Positions 3,105 through 20,639 of a DNA stretch of 21,625 bases are shown in pieces (the first letter of the stretch is position 1; each line of letters opens with the position of its first letter). The stretch is from a virus: IMG/VR virus record IMGVR_UViG_3300037189_004330, positions 1 to 21,625 of that record; one strand, 5' to 3'. The translations under genes and the position numbers were made by a program. The notes beneath the pieces were generated by a model. It did no database searches. It was not told where the DNA came from and saw nothing but the letters and a program-made list of their open reading frames with translations.

Positions 3105-3318
3105 ATTAAATTTGAATTTTGAGACACAAACCGCACCAAGCGGCCGGCCTATTAGATTGTCCGGAATCACTAAGAATGTAGAAAAAGGCGAAAAATGGAT
3201 AAATAAAATGTATCGTAGTTGCTGGATTTATACATTTAAATATTTAGATACTCCATGCGAGTTTATAAGTTTTGAGTTTGATTATAACGATTGTTTTATA
3301 GGTAAATACACAAATTAA
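3073..3318 (+). CDS. Small hypothetical phage protein
   Basis: An 81-residue protein that I do not recognise. It starts inside the nuclease gene with a 32-base overlap in another frame. The start is not certain, but no other Met occurs until about residue 47. The composition is ordinary, with aromatic-rich beta-type stretches (CWIYTFKYL, ISFEFDY) and no signal peptide or membrane segment. It sits in the run of small early genes between the nuclease and the duplicated pair. It may be an accessory or host-takeover protein by position alone. Confidence 0.6.
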   Translation: MTTIKISSKIELNLNFETQTAPSGRPIRLSGITKNVEKGEKWINKMYRSCWIYTFKYLDTPCEFISFEFDYNDCFIGKYTN

Positions 3319-3559: not shown

Positions 3560-3781
3560 ATGCCAGATATAACAATGTGCAAAGGCAATTTTTGCGAATT
3601 AAGTAAAACTTGCTACAGATACAAGGCAGAACCAACGCCCTACAGACAATCGTATTTTGTAAAAGAACCAAACATTAATGATCAATGTGATTATTATTGG
3701 GAAGTTTGCGAATATTGTCACCAGGGAAATGGAGTGCACAAAATAAGTTGTAGTACACAAAAAATTCAAATAAGACTATGA
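3560..3781 (+). CDS. Small cysteine-rich protein, possible zinc binder
   Basis: A 73-residue protein with seven cysteines (C7, C12, C18, C43, C50, C53, C64) and H54 and H60. The C-terminal spacing C50-x2-C53-x6-H60-x3-C64 is compatible with a zinc finger. The middle segment CYRYKAEPTPYRQSYF resembles small uncharacterised proteins seen in Bacteroidota phages, as I remember them. It is probably a zinc-binding accessory protein. Metal binding is an inference from Cys/His spacing. It overlaps the next gene by ATGA. Confidence 0.65.
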   Translation: MPDITMCKGNFCELSKTCYRYKAEPTPYRQSYFVKEPNINDQCDYYWEVCEYCHQGNGVHKISCSTQKIQIRL

Positions 3782-4008
3782 CACCAAAAGAAAAAGCATT
3801 ATACTTATACGGAAGGTTTTTATTTTATACTGATATGAACCGCCAAGATTCAAAAGTTGAAATTTATAATACTAAACAATGTGCATTAATAGCAGTTAAT
3901 GAAATGTTTGAAGAAATTAGTAAATGGGCTGGTGGAGAATTTCAAGAATGGGAAAAAGAACGTTGGAAGTATCTACAAGAAGTTAAACAAGAAATAGAAA
4001 AATTATGA
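3778..4008 (+). CDS. Small hypothetical protein, first copy of a duplicated pair
   Basis: A 76-residue, mostly helical protein of unknown function. It begins MTPKEKA, carries a central KQCALIAVNEM and ends VKQEIEKL. The next gene has the same three blocks in the same order, so the two are paralogues by tandem duplication. Start and stop are both part of ATGA overlaps with the neighbours. This family is a frequent small member of early operons in Bacteroidota phages, but I know of no assigned role. Confidence 0.7.
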   Translation: MTPKEKALYLYGRFLFYTDMNRQDSKVEIYNTKQCALIAVNEMFEEISKWAGGEFQEWEKERWKYLQEVKQEIEKL

Positions 4009-4238
4009 CACCAAAAGAAAAAGCAAAAGAGTTAGTATTTGAATTTAAAAAATATGCATATTATCCAAAAACAAAAGATGATGAAATATTTGTAAATGAA
4101 CTTAAAACAAATGCTAAACAATGTGCGTTAATAGCTGTTGATGAAATAATAAAATCACAATACAAAGTTTTAAGCGGAGTAAAAAAAAGTTTTTATGATT
4201 ATTGGATTGAAATTAAACAAGAAATTGAAAAATTATGA
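4005..4238 (+). CDS. Small hypothetical protein, second copy of a duplicated pair
   Basis: A 77-residue paralogue of the preceding gene. It starts MTPKEKAKELV, has NAKQCALIAVDEI in the middle and ends IKQEIEKL. The region between the shared blocks has diverged (a Lys/Tyr-rich stretch here against an Asp/Arg stretch in the first copy). ATGA overlaps on both sides suggest coupled translation. Function unknown. Confidence 0.7.
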   Translation: MTPKEKAKELVFEFKKYAYYPKTKDDEIFVNELKTNAKQCALIAVDEIIKSQYKVLSGVKKSFYDYWIEIKQEIEKL

Positions 4239-6792: not shown

Positions 6793-8115
6793 ATGGCTTC
6801 AATTAAAAACATATTGCCAAAAGGTTTCCTTTGGTTTGGGCAACCAAATGTACCAAACATATTAAGAAGCGAAGAAGCTAAAGCAAACTTATCAAAAACA
6901 ACGCTTCCAATTCGTTTGGCTCGTATTAAACAGGATGCTTTGTCCTGGAGATTAGCATGTGAAGAAGCGGAACGTCCATTCAATCCGTTTAGGGTTCGAA
7001 TGCAACAAATTTACATTGACACAATCTTAGATGGTCATGTTAAGGCTTGTGTTGAGAGAAGAAAGGATTTGACATTGTTAAGAGATTGGCAATTTGTAAA
7101 TAAAAACAATGAGGTTAACGATGAGGTTGGCCAGATGTTAAATAAACCTTGGTTTAATCGTTTTATGTCGCATTCCTTAGACACTTTAATGTACGGTTAT
7201 TCTTTAATTGAATTAGGAGACTGTGTAAACAATGAATTTAAAGACATAAAAGTAACAAAACGTTGGTACGTTTCACCGGATCGTTATGTTGTGTCAAATA
7301 TGGCCTACAATTTATCCGGGACACCTTTTAAGGATGAGCCTTGGAGTGATTGGCATGTATATTTATCAACTCCCAACGACATAGGAACCTCCGACAGTGG
7401 ATATGGTTTATTTTATGAAGTTGCTTTGTATCAAATATTTTTAAGAAATATTTTAGGGTACAATGGTGACTTTTTAGAATTGTTCGGCCAACCTATTAGA
7501 GTAGGTAAAACAAATAAACAGGAATTAGCAGAACGCGAGAACTTTGCTTCAGCATTGCAAGACATGGGAAGCGCGGGTTGGATTTTGATGGATGCAATCG
7601 ACGATCAAATCGAATTGATTGAAAGCGGAAACGTTGGAAGTTCATGGCAAGCCTATTCAAATTTTGAAAAACGCCTTCAAGGATTAATCTCGAAACTAAT
7701 TTTAGGACATTCTGACGCATTAGACAGCACACCAGGAAAGTTAGGATCTACTCAAGGAGAAGAAAGCCCGGCAGCGCAAGCAATGGAAGACAAACAATCC
7801 AAGGATGGAACGTTTATAACTGACGTTATTAACAGCGAGCTTCTTCCAAGACTTAGAAAATTTGGTTTTAATATTCCAGACGATTGTATTTTTGAATTTA
7901 AAAACGATCACGAAGTACAAGAGAATAACGACAAAGTTATAAGCCAAGCCGTAGAGATTAAAAAAGCCGGGTTCCAAATGTCAAAAGATTATTTTGAAGA
8001 GCAAACGGGAATTAAATTATTTGATTTGCCAGCTGCTGAGTCAAGCCCTGCGGTAATTCAAAGCCAGCCAACAACAAGCATAAAAGACAAACTTAAAAAT
8101 ATATACAAATCATGA
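6793..8115 (+). CDS. Mu gp29-like (DUF935) portal protein
   Basis: A 440-residue portal of the Mu type, forming the dodecameric channel for DNA entry and exit. Family signs: GHVKACVERRKDLTL (81-95), YGYSLIELG (134-142), DFLELFGQPIRVGKT (226-240) and the Gly/Ser-rich LGSTQGEESPAAQAM region. The C-terminal about 30 residues are Ser/Pro-rich and probably flexible. It begins directly after the DUF1320 stop and overlaps the ferritin-like gene by ATGA, so the next gene is translationally coupled to it. Confidence 0.9.
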   Translation: MASIKNILPKGFLWFGQPNVPNILRSEEAKANLSKTTLPIRLARIKQDALSWRLACEEAERPFNPFRVRMQQIYIDTILDGHVKACVERRKDLTLLRDWQFVNKNNEVNDEVGQMLNKPWFNRFMSHSLDTLMYGYSLIELGDCVNNEFKDIKVTKRWYVSPDRYVVSNMAYNLSGTPFKDEPWSDWHVYLSTPNDIGTSDSGYGLFYEVALYQIFLRNILGYNGDFLELFGQPIRVGKTNKQELAERENFASALQDMGSAGWILMDAIDDQIELIESGNVGSSWQAYSNFEKRLQGLISKLILGHSDALDSTPGKLGSTQGEESPAAQAMEDKQSKDGTFITDVINSELLPRLRKFGFNIPDDCIFEFKNDHEVQENNDKVISQAVEIKKAGFQMSKDYFEEQTGIKLFDLPAAESSPAVIQSQPTTSIKDKLKNIYKS

Positions 8116-8615
8116 AACCAAATACTATAAATCAAGCAACTATTGACGCTTTATTGACGCGTTTAAAAGATGAGTTTACGGCTTATTATTTTTATAGATC
8201 CGCTTCGAATTGGTGCAACAATGTAGGATATAAAAAAGCGGGCGAATATTTTGCAGCAGAAAGCGCAGACGAATTGGTGCACGCAAAAAAATTAGAAAAC
8301 TTTTTAGTTGATTGGAATGTTGACGTAAAACTGCCGTTTATCGACTCGCCACAAAGTACCTTTTTAAATTTAGTTGACGTAATAGAAAAAGCCTATCAAT
8401 TAGAGTACAATCTTTATTTAGGTTATGACTTTACAAGCGATGAGATTATAAGTAGAAAGGAACACAATACTTATGGATTTTTACAATTTTTTAGAGACGT
8501 TCAATTGAAGTCAGTTGCAGAATATAGCGACATGTTGAATTTATTGGACGGGGTAGATATTAGAGACAAGGCAAAATTATTGTTATTAGACGAGCATTTG
8601 TTCGGTGAAGATTAA
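8112..8615 (+). CDS. Ferritin-like diiron protein inside the head module
   Basis: A 167-residue protein that aligns by eye along its length with bacterial ferritins. Helix A carries DEFTAYYFYRSASNW with E21. Helix B carries ESADELVHAKKLENF with the ExxH pair E54/H57. The B-C connection has LPFIDSP, helix C has AYQLEYNLYL with E98, and helix D has FLQFFRDVQ with Q131. The ferroxidase ligands equivalent to E17, E50, H53, E94 and Q127 of E. coli FtnA are therefore present. The equivalent of E130 looks replaced (S134), so the second iron site may be altered. Coupled by ATGA to the portal and by TAATG to the MuF gene. It may bind iron or other metal, be a cage or virion component, or protect from oxidants; the virion role is inference. 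Confidence 0.85.
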   Translation: MKPNTINQATIDALLTRLKDEFTAYYFYRSASNWCNNVGYKKAGEYFAAESADELVHAKKLENFLVDWNVDVKLPFIDSPQSTFLNLVDVIEKAYQLEYNLYLGYDFTSDEIISRKEHNTYGFLQFFRDVQLKSVAEYSDMLNLLDGVDIRDKAKLLLLDEHLFGED

Positions 8616-15788: not shown

Positions 15789-15947
15789 ATGCACAACGAA
15801 GAATTAAAAGAGTTACTTTTGTCAAATGTTAATATTTTGTCAGTTTGGATTGACGAGAATAAAGATTGGCACACTTCTAAAATTGAAGGGGCAAAAGAAG
15901 TAACAAGAGAGGAAATTTTAAAACCTAAAAAATCAAAAAATGAATAA
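15789..15947 (+). CDS. Small hypothetical protein between capsid and sheath
   Basis: A 52-residue acidic-then-basic protein. It begins MHNEELKELLLSNVNILSVW, continues DENKDWHTSK and ends in a Lys-rich tail (EEILKPKKSKNE). Small proteins of this pattern often stand between the capsid and tail genes of Bacteroidota phages, but I know no function. It overlaps the sheath gene start by 8 bases, which supports translation. It lies just downstream of the terminator, and no promoter is visible before it. Confidence 0.65.
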   Translation: MHNEELKELLLSNVNILSVWIDENKDWHTSKIEGAKEVTREEILKPKKSKNE

Positions 15948-17448
15948 TATAACCTTTGTAAAAGGACAAGGAGGACTAGGGCGACCATTAGCAGGGAGCG
16001 ATTATATTTCGGGCCTTTTATTTTATACGTCGACTTTACCTTCTGGGTTTTCGTCTACTAATAGAATTAAACAATTTTTTTCTATTTCTGACGCTGTAAA
16101 TGCAGGAATAAAAAACGATTACAACGACGAAACTCAAGCGATTGGGGTTTTTACCGTTTCAAATGTTGGAGCAACAGGAGACAGTATAACATTAAACTTT
16201 ACAGAACCTTCTAAAACAATAGTTTTAGGTAGTTACGTAAAAGTTTCGACAGACACAACCGTTACGGCTGTTGCTACGGCTTTGGTTTCTGCAATCAATG
16301 CTTTGACTTATTCTCACGGATATAGCGCAACAAACACAGCGGGCGCAATTTCAATCACAGCTCGCAAAGGGTTAGGGATTTTCCCAAATACCGGAACTCC
16401 TTTAACTGCTACAATAGTAGGGACAATTGCCGGATCGGTTACAACTGCATTCTCTGGAGGTGTTGCCTCAAAACAAGCTGTTTGGTATTATCATATTTCT
16501 GAATATTTCAGAATACAACCAAAAGGAAACTTATTTGTTGGAATGTATGCCGTGCCAAGTACTTACGATTTTGCGGAAGTTCAAACAATGCAAACTTCAA
16601 CTTTGGTAAATGGATCAATTAGACAAATTGGAGTTTATGTTGATGCTTCAAACTACACAGCGGCATTAACAACAACTTTACAAACTCAAGCAACTGCATT
16701 GGACGTGTTAAAAATGCCTTTGTCAATTGTTTTAGGAGCTAACATATTACCAGCTACAGACATAACAAGTTTAACCGATTTATCAACTTTAAGTAACAAC
16801 AAAGTGAGCGTTGTTATTAGCCAGGATAATGGAGGCCAAGGATTAGCGTTATGGAATGCAACCGGAAAATCAATTACAACTTTAGGAGCTACGTTAGGGG
16901 CTGTTGCTTTGGCTTCAGTTCATGAGGACATTGCCTGGGTTGGTAAATTTAATTTATCAAACGGAATAGAATTGGAAAGCGTTGGTTTCTGTAATGGAAC
17001 AAGCGGACAAAGTGCAAGTGCTTTAGATGCTATCGATTTAAAACGATACATTTTCTTAAGAAAATTCCCGAATTTAGCTGGATCGTTTTTTAACGACTCA
17101 CACACAGCAATTTCAAAAAGTAGCGATTACGCTTACATTGAAAATAACAGAGTAATTGACAAAGCAATAAGAGGCGTTGATACAGCGTTAATTCCTTCTT
17201 TAAATTCACCTTTATTGTTAAACGCAAACGGAACCTTAGCAAACAGCACAATTGCATTTTTGGAAGGTCAAGCCGTAGTTGTTACAAATGATATGGTAAG
17301 AAACGGAGAGGCTTCTGCTATTGGTGTGTTAATTAATCCAAATCAAAATGTTGCTTCTACTAGCAAAGTGATTGTAACAATTACCATTGTTCCTGTAGGA
17401 GTTGCAAGAAATATTCAAGTAAACATCGGATTTAAAACATCATTATAA
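15940..17448 (+). CDS. Contractile tail sheath protein (DUF2586-like)
   Basis: A 502-residue sheath protein that contracts during infection. The N-terminus KGQGGLGRPLAGSDYISGLLFY is typical of DUF2586 sheath proteins. The C-terminal core has WVGKFNLSNG (about 333-342), DLKRYIFLRKFPNLAGSFFND (split by context at about 367-387) and the conserved terminal strands. An extra strand-rich Thr/Ala/Gly section (about 70-175) with TVTAVATALVSAINAL is probably an exposed inserted domain on the sheath surface. Its presence shows that the phage is a myovirus. Confidence 0.85.
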   Translation: MNNITFVKGQGGLGRPLAGSDYISGLLFYTSTLPSGFSSTNRIKQFFSISDAVNAGIKNDYNDETQAIGVFTVSNVGATGDSITLNFTEPSKTIVLGSYVKVSTDTTVTAVATALVSAINALTYSHGYSATNTAGAISITARKGLGIFPNTGTPLTATIVGTIAGSVTTAFSGGVASKQAVWYYHISEYFRIQPKGNLFVGMYAVPSTYDFAEVQTMQTSTLVNGSIRQIGVYVDASNYTAALTTTLQTQATALDVLKMPLSIVLGANILPATDITSLTDLSTLSNNKVSVVISQDNGGQGLALWNATGKSITTLGATLGAVALASVHEDIAWVGKFNLSNGIELESVGFCNGTSGQSASALDAIDLKRYIFLRKFPNLAGSFFNDSHTAISKSSDYAYIENNRVIDKAIRGVDTALIPSLNSPLLLNANGTLANSTIAFLEGQAVVVTNDMVRNGEASAIGVLINPNQNVASTSKVIVTITIVPVGVARNIQVNIGFKTSL

Positions 17449-17450
17449 TT

Positions 17451-17870
17451 ATGGCAACACCTTTAATAAATGGGGTAAACTACAGTTGGGCAAACGTTAA
17501 ACTTATTTTGTTTGGCGTTCCTGTTGTAGGTATTACAAAAATTTCGTACAAAACGAAACAGAAAAAAGAAAACCAATACGGAGCGGGTTACGAGCCAATT
17601 AGTAGAGGTTATGGGAATAAAGAATATGAAGGTAGTATTGAAATTTACACCGACGAATTAAAAAACATTATTGCTTCAGCTCCTAACAGAGACTTGATGG
17701 CAATACCGCCTTTTAATATTCAAATCGTATTTGAAGACGCAGCAAACGGGTTTTTAACACAGGATAATTTATTAATGTGTGAATTTACTGAAGAAGGTTT
17801 GGATGCTTCGCAATCAGATACAAAATTATTAGTATCTTTGCCGTTAGTAATCGGTAAAATAACTAGATAA
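17451..17870 (+). CDS. Tail tube protein
   Basis: A 139-residue protein two bases after the sheath stop, in the fixed place of the tube gene. SWANVKLILFGVPVVGITKISYK at the start, the GAGYEPISRGYGNKEYEGSI turn in the middle and strand-rich ends are typical of the small tube proteins of Bacteroidota myophages. It polymerises as hexamer rings inside the sheath. The next start overlaps its stop by one base. Confidence 0.83.
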   Translation: MATPLINGVNYSWANVKLILFGVPVVGITKISYKTKQKKENQYGAGYEPISRGYGNKEYEGSIEIYTDELKNIIASAPNRDLMAIPPFNIQIVFEDAANGFLTQDNLLMCEFTEEGLDASQSDTKLLVSLPLVIGKITR

Positions 17871-18187
17871 TGGACAAAATTGAACAACAAGCGCAAGATT
17901 TAAGCGTAAAATTAAATTGCCAAGTGTTACCAATCGTTTTTCACGATGAGGAAACTAACCAGGACATTGTAGGATTTATAAAAGAACCTTCAAGAGTCGT
18001 GAAGTTGAGAGTTATGGACAAAGCGATGACATCGCCTGTAACTGCTGCGGCTGAATTGTTCGAAAGTGTTTTTATTGCAGAGGCAAGCGATGCCAGATTT
18101 TTAACTGAGGATAAATTTTTCTTAGGTGGAACAATGGAGGCTTTCAAAACTGTTGAAATGGCTGTAAATACTTTTAAAAAAAAATAG
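17870..18187 (+). CDS. Tail assembly chaperone (short form, before frameshift)
   Basis: A 105-residue protein between the tube and tape measure genes, the invariant place of tail assembly chaperones. It ends in TFKKK encoded on nine consecutive A residues immediately before the TAG stop. Residues 30-90 are a small mixed fold (VGFIKEPSRVVKLRVMDKAM). It should bind the tape measure protein and help tube assembly. The A run just before the stop is a likely -1 frameshift site; the continuation is described separately. Confidence 0.8.
   Translation: MDKIEQQAQDLSVKLNCQVLPIVFHDEETNQDIVGFIKEPSRVVKLRVMDKAMTSPVTAAAELFESVFIAEASDARFLTEDKFFLGGTMEAFKTVEMAVNTFKKK
18176..18184 (+). promoter_or_regulatory. 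Slippery A run for -1 ribosomal frameshifting
   Basis: Nine A residues, read in frame 0 as three AAA codons and directly followed by TAG. The A-AAA-AAA heptamer (18178-18184) allows both tRNAs to re-pair after a -1 slip. I did not establish a downstream pseudoknot by eye. Confidence 0.7.
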
Positions 18188-18360
18188 AAGACTACACCAT
18201 TAGCGAACAAAGTAGCGAGGAAACGAAAATGATTGCGTTGCTTCGCTACTTTTCGCATTTTAGCGTTGACGTTGACAATCTTAGCGACGACGATTTTGCT
18301 AAAATGTGGGGACAATTACAATATTCACTAGAAAAAACAGGATATTACAACAATGGATAA
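18184..18360 (+). CDS. -1 frame extension of the tail assembly chaperone
   Basis: Reading one base back at the A run gives an open frame of 58 codons that follows the short form without a break: IEDYTISEQSS at the start, a central MIALLRYFSHF and the end FAKMWGQLQYSLEKTGYYNN, before a TAA at 18358-18360. It fills the otherwise empty 165-base gap and ends 8 bases inside the tape measure gene. A -1 shift gives a fusion of about 163 residues. An independent start at ATG 18229 (43 residues) is the alternative. Frameshifting here is conserved across long-tailed phages (gpG/gpGT of lambda), which strongly supports it. Confidence 0.72.
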   Translation: MEDYTISEQSSEETKMIALLRYFSHFSVDVDNLSDDDFAKMWGQLQYSLEKTGYYNNG

Positions 18361-19990
18361 TCAAATTAGATATACAATAACGGCTAACGACATGGTTTCT
18401 GGCAAGCTCCAAGGAATGCAAGGTCAAGCGGTTAAATTAGAGAGTACAATGGGTGGCCTTAGCAAAGTAATGGGAACCCTTGGGATTGGCTTTGCAGTTT
18501 TTAAAGGTTTAGAATTTGTCAAAGGAGGAATTGAAAAAGTTGAAGAAATGCACCAAGCCACGGCCCAGGTTCAAGCCGCTTTGACTTCTACAAATAATGC
18601 AGCTGGATTGTCGATGAAGCAACTCGAAGAGAGCGCGTCGTCTTTGGCTTCAAATACCAAATTTAGTCAAACCGACGTTTTTGGAATGCAATCTTTATTA
18701 CTAACATTTACTTCCGTAAAAGATAAAATTTTTAACGAGGCGCAGCCGGCAATTATGGACTTGGCGCAAAGAATGGGAGGCGATTTAAAAGGAGCGTCCA
18801 TTCAAGTGGGTAAGGCTTTAAACGATCCGGTTCAAGGTATGACAGCGCTTCGACGTGTTGGGGTTTCTTTTAGCGAAAGCCAAAAAAATGTAATTAAACA
18901 TTTACAAGAGACCGGAGATTTAGCAGGAGCACAAAAAATAATTTTAAAAGAGTTATCAACAGAGTTCGGCGGTTCGGCACAAGCTGCCTTCAATGCGGAT
19001 CCTTTGGCACAATTTAACAAAACTATGGGCGGTTTTCAAAAGTCTATAGGATTGGGAGCGATGGCATTATTGGAAGCGTTAAAACCCGCCTTAGATTTAA
19101 TAGCCTCAGCGTTCAAATCTTTGGGAACTGGAATAAAAAACGTAATTGCTTTTTTTGAAAAACATGTTGTTTTAGCCGACACCTTAAAAGTATTTTTGTT
19201 TTCTATTGTAACTATTTTAATTTTGTACAATACACAACAAAAGTTAAGCGCTATGTATACCGCATTTACTACGACTTCATTTATTGCCAATACTTTTGCA
19301 GCGGGAGCAATGACAGCGGGAATGGCTGGAGCTTCAGCGGGTGGAATGATTTTAGCGGGCGTAATGGCTTTAATAAATTCAGTAAATCCATTTGTTTGGA
19401 TTGTTTTAGCAATAGCGGCCGTAATTGCGGCGGTTGTAGAATGTTATAATCATTTCGAAACATTTAGGGGTGTTATTTTTGCAATTGGAAACGTAATAAA
19501 AGAATATGTAGGTATTTGGGTTGATATGTTTATGGGATTTGGCAAAATGTTAAAAGGGGTATTTACCCTTGACTCCGGATTAATAAGCGAAGGATTTAAC
19601 CAGGCAACTTCAGCCCTTTTTAATGCCGGTAAAAACTTAGGAGACGCAGCAAAAAAAGGTTACAAAAACGGAATTGCTGACTTCCATAAAGACGCGGTAA
19701 AAGATGCCAACGCAGAAAAAGAAGGCAAAGAAGGTAAAACAAAAGGAATGGGCGGAATGAAGCCTATGATTGCAGGAGCCGGAGGAACAACAACGAAAGC
19801 CGCTCCAAAAGGAACCGGAGGCGTTCAAGGTAACAAGGCGGTAACTGTTAACATTCAAATAGGATCATTAATACACGATTTTAGTATTAAAACAACTAAC
19901 ATACAAGAGAGTGCAACAGCTATAAAAGAAAAGGTAGTAATGGCTTTGACAAGCGCGGTGAATGACTCACAACTAATAGCAGGAAATTAA
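18353..19990 (+). CDS. Tail tape measure protein
   Basis: A 545-residue protein, largely helical, with a tape measure N-terminal repeat-like part (LEESASSLASNTKFSQTD, then FTSVKDKIFNEAQPAIMDLAQRMGG, given here in pieces) of the TMP core. Three hydrophobic stretches (about 278-294, 313-341, 346-364) look like the membrane-active segments of such proteins. A low-complexity Gly/Lys/Ala linker (about 455-495) precedes the C-terminus. At 0.15 nm per residue it predicts a tail of about 80 nm, short for a myovirus. It follows the chaperone, as expected, with the start overlapping the frameshifted extension. Confidence 0.87.
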   Translation: MDNQIRYTITANDMVSGKLQGMQGQAVKLESTMGGLSKVMGTLGIGFAVFKGLEFVKGGIEKVEEMHQATAQVQAALTSTNNAAGLSMKQLEESASSLASNTKFSQTDVFGMQSLLLTFTSVKDKIFNEAQPAIMDLAQRMGGDLKGASIQVGKALNDPVQGMTALRRVGVSFSESQKNVIKHLQETGDLAGAQKIILKELSTEFGGSAQAAFNADPLAQFNKTMGGFQKSIGLGAMALLEALKPALDLIASAFKSLGTGIKNVIAFFEKHVVLADTLKVFLFSIVTILILYNTQQKLSAMYTAFTTTSFIANTFAAGAMTAGMAGASAGGMILAGVMALINSVNPFVWIVLAIAAVIAAVVECYNHFETFRGVIFAIGNVIKEYVGIWVDMFMGFGKMLKGVFTLDSGLISEGFNQATSALFNAGKNLGDAAKKGYKNGIADFHKDAVKDANAEKEGKEGKTKGMGGMKPMIAGAGGTTTKAAPKGTGGVQGNKAVTVNIQIGSLIHDFSIKTTNIQESATAIKEKVVMALTSAVNDSQLIAGN

Positions 19991-19991
19991 G

Positions 19992-20639
19992 ATGAGCAAC
20001 TTTAAAATAAATGATTTAGGAGTACAAAAAATAACTTTAAATGCGGCAGAGGTTGCAGCTAGAAAAATAGTAATTAATTCTTTAGTCTCTAAGGCTAATT
20101 TGCAAAATGTAAAAATACATGATGCTGCAAGCTCGCCTTATATTATTGGTGCAGGAGACACGCAGGACGTGACTAATTTTGTAAGTCAATTAGGAACGCC
20201 TGTTTATTCAAATGTTATTTTTAATGCCGGACAAGTTTATACAAACGATGGAAACGTAATTAATAAATGGGAAGACTTTAGAATTGACGACGTTTTATTG
20301 CAAGTTTCACAATCTAAAAAAATAGTTACAACCGAAATTCAAGGACGTGACGGAACGGTTAAGGAATATATTGGTTTGGACGATTTCCAGGTGCAAATTA
20401 CGGGCCGTTTAAATGGTAAGTACAATGTAAATCCAAAAGAAAAAACAAAGCAATTAAAAGAGATTTTGGACGCGGGCCAACCATTAGCGATAACAAATTG
20501 GTGGTTGCAAAATTTAGGGATTACCGATATAGTAATACAAAACTATAGTTTTGAACAAACAGAGGGCGAATATAGCACCCAATATTTTACAATCAATGCA
20601 ATTTCAGACAAAGTAGTCGAGGCAACAATTACACAATAA
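19992..20639 (+). CDS. Tail/baseplate protein following the tape measure
   Basis: A 215-residue protein directly after the tape measure gene and before the hub-like gene. That slot is normally held by a DNA-circulation (Mu gp43) or LysM/hub-adjacent protein. The central TTEIQGRDGTVKEYIGLDDFQVQITG (in two parts) recalls the GRxGTVKEY..xxD(Y/F)xIxI pattern of the Bacteroidota-phage family DUF6046, as I remember it. It is probably part of the baseplate hub or tube end. The DUF match is from memory of the pattern; context is the firmer support. Confidence 0.65.
   Translation: MSNFKINDLGVQKITLNAAEVAARKIVINSLVSKANLQNVKIHDAASSPYIIGAGDTQDVTNFVSQLGTPVYSNVIFNAGQVYTNDGNVINKWEDFRIDDVLLQVSQSKKIVTTEIQGRDGTVKEYIGLDDFQVQITGRLNGKYNVNPKEKTKQLKEILDAGQPLAITNWWLQNLGITDIVIQNYSFEQTEGEYSTQYFTINAISDKVVEATITQ

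Follow-up and report, generated by a model that had tools for sequence, protein, structure and literature searches.

The window analysed here is an IMG/VR record of 21.6 kb, the head module of which includes Mu-like portal and F proteins. By PHROG matches, a sheath and a tube gene lie 5' of a small chaperone gene, and a tape measure and a baseplate hub gene lie 3' of it. The features of this region are as follows:

15940..17448, + strand: contractile tail sheath (PHROG 907 tail sheath, E=3.9e-33; Pfam DUF2586, E=9.4e-40)
17451..17870, + strand: tail tube protein (PHROG 4579 tail protein, E=7.9e-20; position 3' of the sheath)
17870..18187, + strand: tail assembly chaperone, short form (G-like), 105 aa (flanked by tube and tape measure genes; AF2 fold; ATG overlaps the tube stop)
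18176..18184, + strand: A9 recoding site (in-phase heptamer A_AAA_AAA; TAG immediately 3')
18184..18360, + strand: -1 frame extension (T-like), 58 codons plus TAA (without a start codon of its own; open in all relatives)
Predicted fusion junction peptide, spanning NTFKKKIEDYTI
18203..18256, + strand: RNA hairpin within the extension (z-scores, compensatory changes; 18 nt 3' of A9)
18353..19990, + strand: tail length tape measure protein (PHROG 27166, E=1.4e-35; ATG overlaps the -1 stop, ATGGATAA)
19992..20639, + strand: baseplate hub-like protein (PHROG 5233, E=2e-17; Pfam DUF6046, E=4.2e-29)

The tube ORF (17451..17870) matches PHROG 9206 as well as it matches PHROG 4579, yet PHROG 9206 is annotated as a major head protein.

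The recoding site and the chaperone gene

The chaperone ORF (17870-18187) ends in AAT ACT TTT AAA AAA AAA TAG. The original prediction had placed nine A residues directly 5' of the TAG and an open -1 frame of 58 codons beyond them, and both are present: the run, A9, occupies 18176-18184, the TAG at 18185-18187 directly adjoins it, and the -1 frame extends from ATA (18184-18186) to GGA (18355-18357), its 58 codons encoding IEDYTISEQSSEETKMIALLRYFSHFSVDVDNLSDDDFAKMWGQLQYSLEKTGYYNNG, with the stop TAA at 18358-18360. A9 is found once in the window, with no second copy, and runs of at least eight As are far rarer there (5 overlapping matches) than in shuffles (27.9). A heptamer of the form X_XXY_YYZ is present in the zero frame, as A_AAA_AAA at 18178-18184. 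Because the -1 frame is closed on the left by a TAA at 18175-18177, the shift must occur inside A9. The extension had also been predicted to fill exactly the gap before the tape measure gene; it does reach that gene, but its stop overlaps the tape-measure ATG (18353), the overlap being 8 nt. Gene callers will miss the extension in genomes of these phages.

Profile searches with Pfam, PHROG and NCBIfam gave no match above threshold for the chaperone, so its classification relies on gene position and architecture and does not place it in any named sequence family. By position, and with moderate support from its predicted fold, it is a tail chaperone of the G/GT type. It is situated between the major tail tube and the tape measure, with PHROG matches on both sides, and comparative sequence evidence gives it a frame-changed C-terminal extension ending at the tape-measure start. 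The short form and the extension were modelled with AF2 as separate chains; the short form had a pLDDT of 85, and the extension was modelled as two helices with a pLDDT of 86. At or near the top of the PDB list for the short-form model were 3fgx (Z 7.9), YqbN (3klu, Z 5.1) and the HK97 tail chaperone (2ob9, Z 4.1). These scores are moderate, unrelated PDB entries having mostly Z of 3 or less except 5ir0 at 6.1, and Foldseek E values for the chaperone model matches were 0.01-0.9. The similarity of the predicted fold to known tail chaperones is support, not proof. We regard the gene as a new, unnamed tail chaperone family with a real recoding site; the kind of device is already known.

Conservation of the extension among relatives

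Relatives were obtained by searches of IMG/VR and GTDB contigs and grouped into lineages as clusters of 75% identity; those in named genomes belong to the Bacteroidota in every case. Fifty-one divergent lineages bear the extension: in each of them no stop interrupts the -1 frame for ~50-80 codons past the A-run, and an extension can be recognised in its translation. Since it is present in all 51 extension-bearing lineages, the arrangement is, on this comparison, far beyond chance. The original prediction, of a conserved -1 frame extension without its own start on a tail assembly chaperone, had named stops in the -1 frame of relatives, or a conserved start at 18229, as findings that would speak against it. 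No such stops are present in the relatives, and the ATG at 18229 is not conserved. The protein-level conservation that had been proposed as a check is seen in a dN/dS of 0.17 for the -1 frame in nine near relatives, in which the zero frame of the same stretch contains 30 stops. In 60 of 67 sequences, the tape-measure start falls in the interval -14 to +10 nt relative to the -1 stop. These comparisons place the frame change within A9 and both reading frames under protein-level selection, and there is hardly any doubt that the frame changes at the A-run. Because of the open -1 frame, the low dN/dS, the zero-frame stops, the position of the tape-measure start and the unconserved Met at 18229, the extension is almost certainly translated by fusion.

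Two other explanations of the arrangement were considered and rejected. The extension might be a separate gene with its own start, either the ATG that does occur in the -1 frame of the window at 18229 or a non-AUG codon. Relatives, however, have I, T, W or another residue in place of this Met (KIIALL, KITALL, QWECLI), and the 15 codons upstream of it, none of which is ATG, GTG or TTG in the window, are conserved as protein back to A9, so that an independent start is extremely improbable. Homopolymers mutate by replication slippage, and A9 might accordingly be a phase-variable contingency tract, or the site of damage to a single gene, without programmed recoding. A fused in-frame form was found in none of more than 80 distinct relative sequences, independent metagenomes gave concordant contigs, and selection acts on both frames; phase variation or error is thus very improbable.

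A tblastn search against annotated phages gave no match, which left no annotated relative for comparison, and 395 sampled genomes of the host phylum yielded no further prophage, their one weak match (L168) being unrelated. In lineages L006 and L007 the upstream part of the extension matches the window's group and the C-terminal part matches the L008-type branch (FTLDVENMSDDELAKNWGQLKWGL), which suggests recombination inside the extension.

RNA structure within the extension

The hairpin at 18203-18256 is composed of an outer stem GCGAA/TTCGC, a core AAGTAGCGAGG/CTTCGCTACTT and an inner stem AACG/CGTT. Its z-score is -3.9 for a 129-nt stretch and -4.8 when compared with synonymously recoded versions of the protein. 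All 11 tested members of the window's tree clade (W, L002, L008, L012, L018, L020, L022, L031, L051, L101 and L102) have p of at most 0.02, and in 60-nt windows the signal is limited to ~15-75 nt after the run, with nothing upstream. Mean z is -5.8 in 16 hairpin-bearing lineages, a set picked after the folds had been seen, for which the clade-wise count is the fairer statement; it is -2.8 in the L121-L156 group and ~0 in the L024-L055 group. The latter group lacks the hairpin and keeps A9.

Covariation was counted after 17 sequences had been aligned in a single register; for some of them the best helix falls in a neighbouring one. Sixteen cells carry changes in both sides of the helix. Shuffles give 5.8 (0 of 500 reach the observed count) and slid registers 1-4. 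Ser, for example, is mostly encoded by AGT when the partner codon is Tyr TAC, and by AGC when it is Cys TGC. Other lineages keep the helix with differing letters and register (L048, AAAGTACCGGGG/CTCCGGTACTTT; L068, AACGCAAGCGATGA/TTATCGCTTGCGTT), and because the registers differ (102, 104, 105, 108) no RNAalifold consensus was obtained over all hairpin-bearing lineages. The covariation and z-scores indicate that the hairpin is selected beyond the protein; this long covarying hairpin is a new observation here.

Stimulatory structures of -1 ribosomal frameshift sites usually, though not obligatorily, lie ~5-9 nt downstream. Judged by this spacing, the hairpin of the window should be out of reach of a ribosome halted at the TAG, and because of the 18-nt distance its role as a classical stimulator there is doubtful. 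The structure of lineage L031 does fall within the usual range (7-8 nt), and a large group has no structure at all. Among the possible roles of the hairpin are stabilising the message 5' of it, obstructing Rho or nucleases where translation is poor, and affecting frameshifting.

Run length and the mechanism of the frame change

The A-run is 9 long in 48 of the 51 lineages and 10 in 2, and in L031 it is 6 followed by G; 50 of 51 thus have at least nine. It occurs in three codon phases, represented by TTT AAA AAA AAA TAG (also with TAA or TGA), CAA AAA AAA AGT TAG, GTA AAA AAA AAT TAG, GCA AAA AAA AAG AAC TAA and ATA AAA AAA AAC TAA. In a tree built from 67 fusion proteins, the combination of run and phase changed at least 8 times. 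The residues encoded at the site vary (KKK, QKKS, KKN, KKKN, KKKS) and the count of As is nearly constant. Among ~40 phase-1 lineages the third Lys codon is never AAG, which makes up a quarter of Lys codons; this absence has a probability of ~1e-5 if the lineages are independent. In E. coli A_AAA_AAG is the better ribosomal site (PMC4066793).

Runs in other genes of the same phages (249 kb) were compared with expectations from synonymous shuffling. A7 shows no depletion (71 runs, 62 expected), A8 is halved (18 seen, 32 expected), and runs of nine or more are absent in all phases (0 seen, 8.2 expected). In a host genome 1 run of nine or more was seen against 13 expected. Selection against transcriptional slippage is described for many bacteria with a usual threshold of nine As or Ts (PMC1088944), and the pattern in these phages agrees with it. 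Nine As form an RNA polymerase slippage site in dnaX of Thermus thermophilus (PMC1088944, PMC5009743), and sliding of ribosomes on As in vitro is robust with eleven (PMC4363877). Coding strands of the phage loci, in all phases, and of the host G002 contigs are depleted of long T-runs as they are of A-runs.

The run length is kept in every phase, and runs of nine or more are purged from other genes where A7 is tolerated; therefore the pattern favours polymerase slippage. We put at about an even chance that RNA polymerase slips at A9, with ribosomes perhaps helping. Polymerase would stutter on A9, so that some transcripts gain one A or lose two, and ribosomes translating these normally would continue into the extension; a ribosomal -1 slip on the embedded A_AAA_AAA probably contributes. 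Most of the product would be the 105-residue short form, and a minority would carry the 58-residue extension. Apart from L031, the family has what is expected of a transcriptional site, a run of at least eight to nine As or Ts with its length conserved irrespective of phase. The L024-L055 group, with A9 and without RNA structure, counts for polymerase slippage, as does L311, a host prophage copy lacking both the homologous extension and A9. Against it stand the -1 direction in every relative, shifts of orthologues in either direction being a supporting though not obligatory sign of slippage (PMC3711429), and L031, in which A6G leads into the same extension although polymerase would not be expected to slip there. 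Moreover, the three Lys codons of phase-1 lineages could be protein-driven, the avoidance of runs may stem from replication slippage, and any A9 contains the ribosomal heptamer A_AAA_AAA. An upstream hairpin able to drive terminator-like slippage was not found in windows from -150 to -60, and a literature search found no description of a tail chaperone made by transcriptional slippage, which is no proof of absence.

A purely ribosomal -1 frameshift, which we rate somewhat below an even chance, would have tandem tRNA-Lys slip on A_AAA_AAA before a slow TAG, as in the G/GT genes of other phages, with help from the hairpin where one is present. Phage tail chaperones are classic users of ribosomal frameshifting (PMC5009743), with 6-7% measured for genes of an HK97-like cluster (PMC3711429), and a single direction of shift, here -1 in all relatives, has been read as a sign of it (PMC3711429). 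A_AAA_AAA or A_AAA_AAG is in phase in 100% of relatives, although any A9 contains the heptamer; the covarying hairpin of the window's clade is under RNA-level selection, and L031 combines A_AAA_AAG with a long, near stem into a dnaX-like signal. A purely ribosomal shift, however, gives no account of a run of 9 or 10 across codon phases, of the avoidance of AAG, or of in-phase A7 being tolerated in other genes, and the hairpin of the window lies past the usual distance and is absent from a whole group. Of the programmed -1 frameshift originally predicted, the change of frame and the chaperone extension stand; for the mechanism, ribosomal shifting is a candidate, and the run-length pattern fits RNA-polymerase slippage at least as well.

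Two relatives lack A9. L031 (IMGVR_UViG_3300020045_009111), the sole extension-bearing lineage without A9, has GCA AAA AAG TAG near 3309 and a stem of -31 to -34 kcal/mol 7-8 nt 3'. The third prophage copy, L311 (reverse complement; host genome G002 contig C89), has TTA AAA AAG TAA, a terminator-like hairpin of 7-8 bp, GGGGCGG..CTGCCCCTTTT, ~10 nt 3', and a 34-codon -1 frame without similarity to the extension, with the tape-measure gene directly after. L311 appears to be a form that lost the extension, and in one branch of the family the ribosome alone seems to suffice. A fuller account, tentative and a little more apt to be wrong than right, is that in this family of Bacteroidota phages the ratio of short to long chaperone is set by programmed polymerase slippage at a fixed A9, that one branch switched to ribosomal frameshifting (A6G with a near stem), and that the hairpin, beyond the footprint of the terminating ribosome, serves the mRNA in a way of its own, for instance by protecting the 5' message for high-copy structural proteins.

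The best explanation of the gene is that it yields two tail assembly chaperones, like lambda G and GT (Xu, Hendrix and Duda; PMC5009743). Shared with lambda and its relatives are the order of tube, chaperone, -1 extension and tape measure, an extended fusion whose extension ends at the tape-measure start and, with moderate scores, a predicted fold resembling HK97 chaperone 2ob9. In contrast to lambda, there is no detectable similarity to named families, A9 replaces a G_GGA_AAG-like heptamer, and the relatives in named genomes are all Bacteroidota; the head genes are Mu-like and the tail is contractile. By analogy with lambda (PMC5009743), where the ratio of short to long form is ~30:1, the short form would coat the tape measure protein, the extension would recruit tube subunits, and the ratio would matter for tail assembly. 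Only ribosomes that read the extension would end at the tape-measure start, so tape-measure translation may be coupled to the long form.

Thermus thermophilus dnaX (PMC1088944, PMC5009743) likewise has nine As within a coding region and makes two protein forms; its long form comes from the unslipped transcript, whereas here it is proposed to come from the slipped one. Transposases of the IS630 and IS3 types, which use A-run slippage or A_AAA_AAA/AAG shifts, have a first ORF ending at an A-run and a second in another frame. IS families with transcriptional slippage, however, show both shift directions (PMC3711429), and only -1 is seen here. E. coli dnaX uses ribosomal frameshifting on A_AAA_AAG with a downstream stem. 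It is matched by the junction and stem of L031, unlike the window and 49 other lineages, which have A9 or A10 and a stem that is further off or absent. The features that are uncommon here are the phase-independent conservation of nine As, the natural contrast of A9 with A6G, and the covarying hairpin at an unusual distance.

Tail chaperone frameshifting is among the most widespread phage recoding events and is treated as ribosomal. An A-run conserved in length through changes of phase offers a clean natural system for asking whether polymerase or ribosome sets the ratio. If the proposal is true, homologous phage genes use transcription or translation to the same end, as dnaX does.

Two further observations concern other parts of the window. 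An ORF at 8112-8615, in an unusual position between the Mu-like portal and F-like head genes, has a ferritin-like look (ADELVHAKKLENFL). Within 3778-4238, two small neighbouring ORFs (3778-4008 and 4005-4238) have similar products that both start MTPKEKA and share the motif TKQCALIAV; they are likely a tandem duplication.
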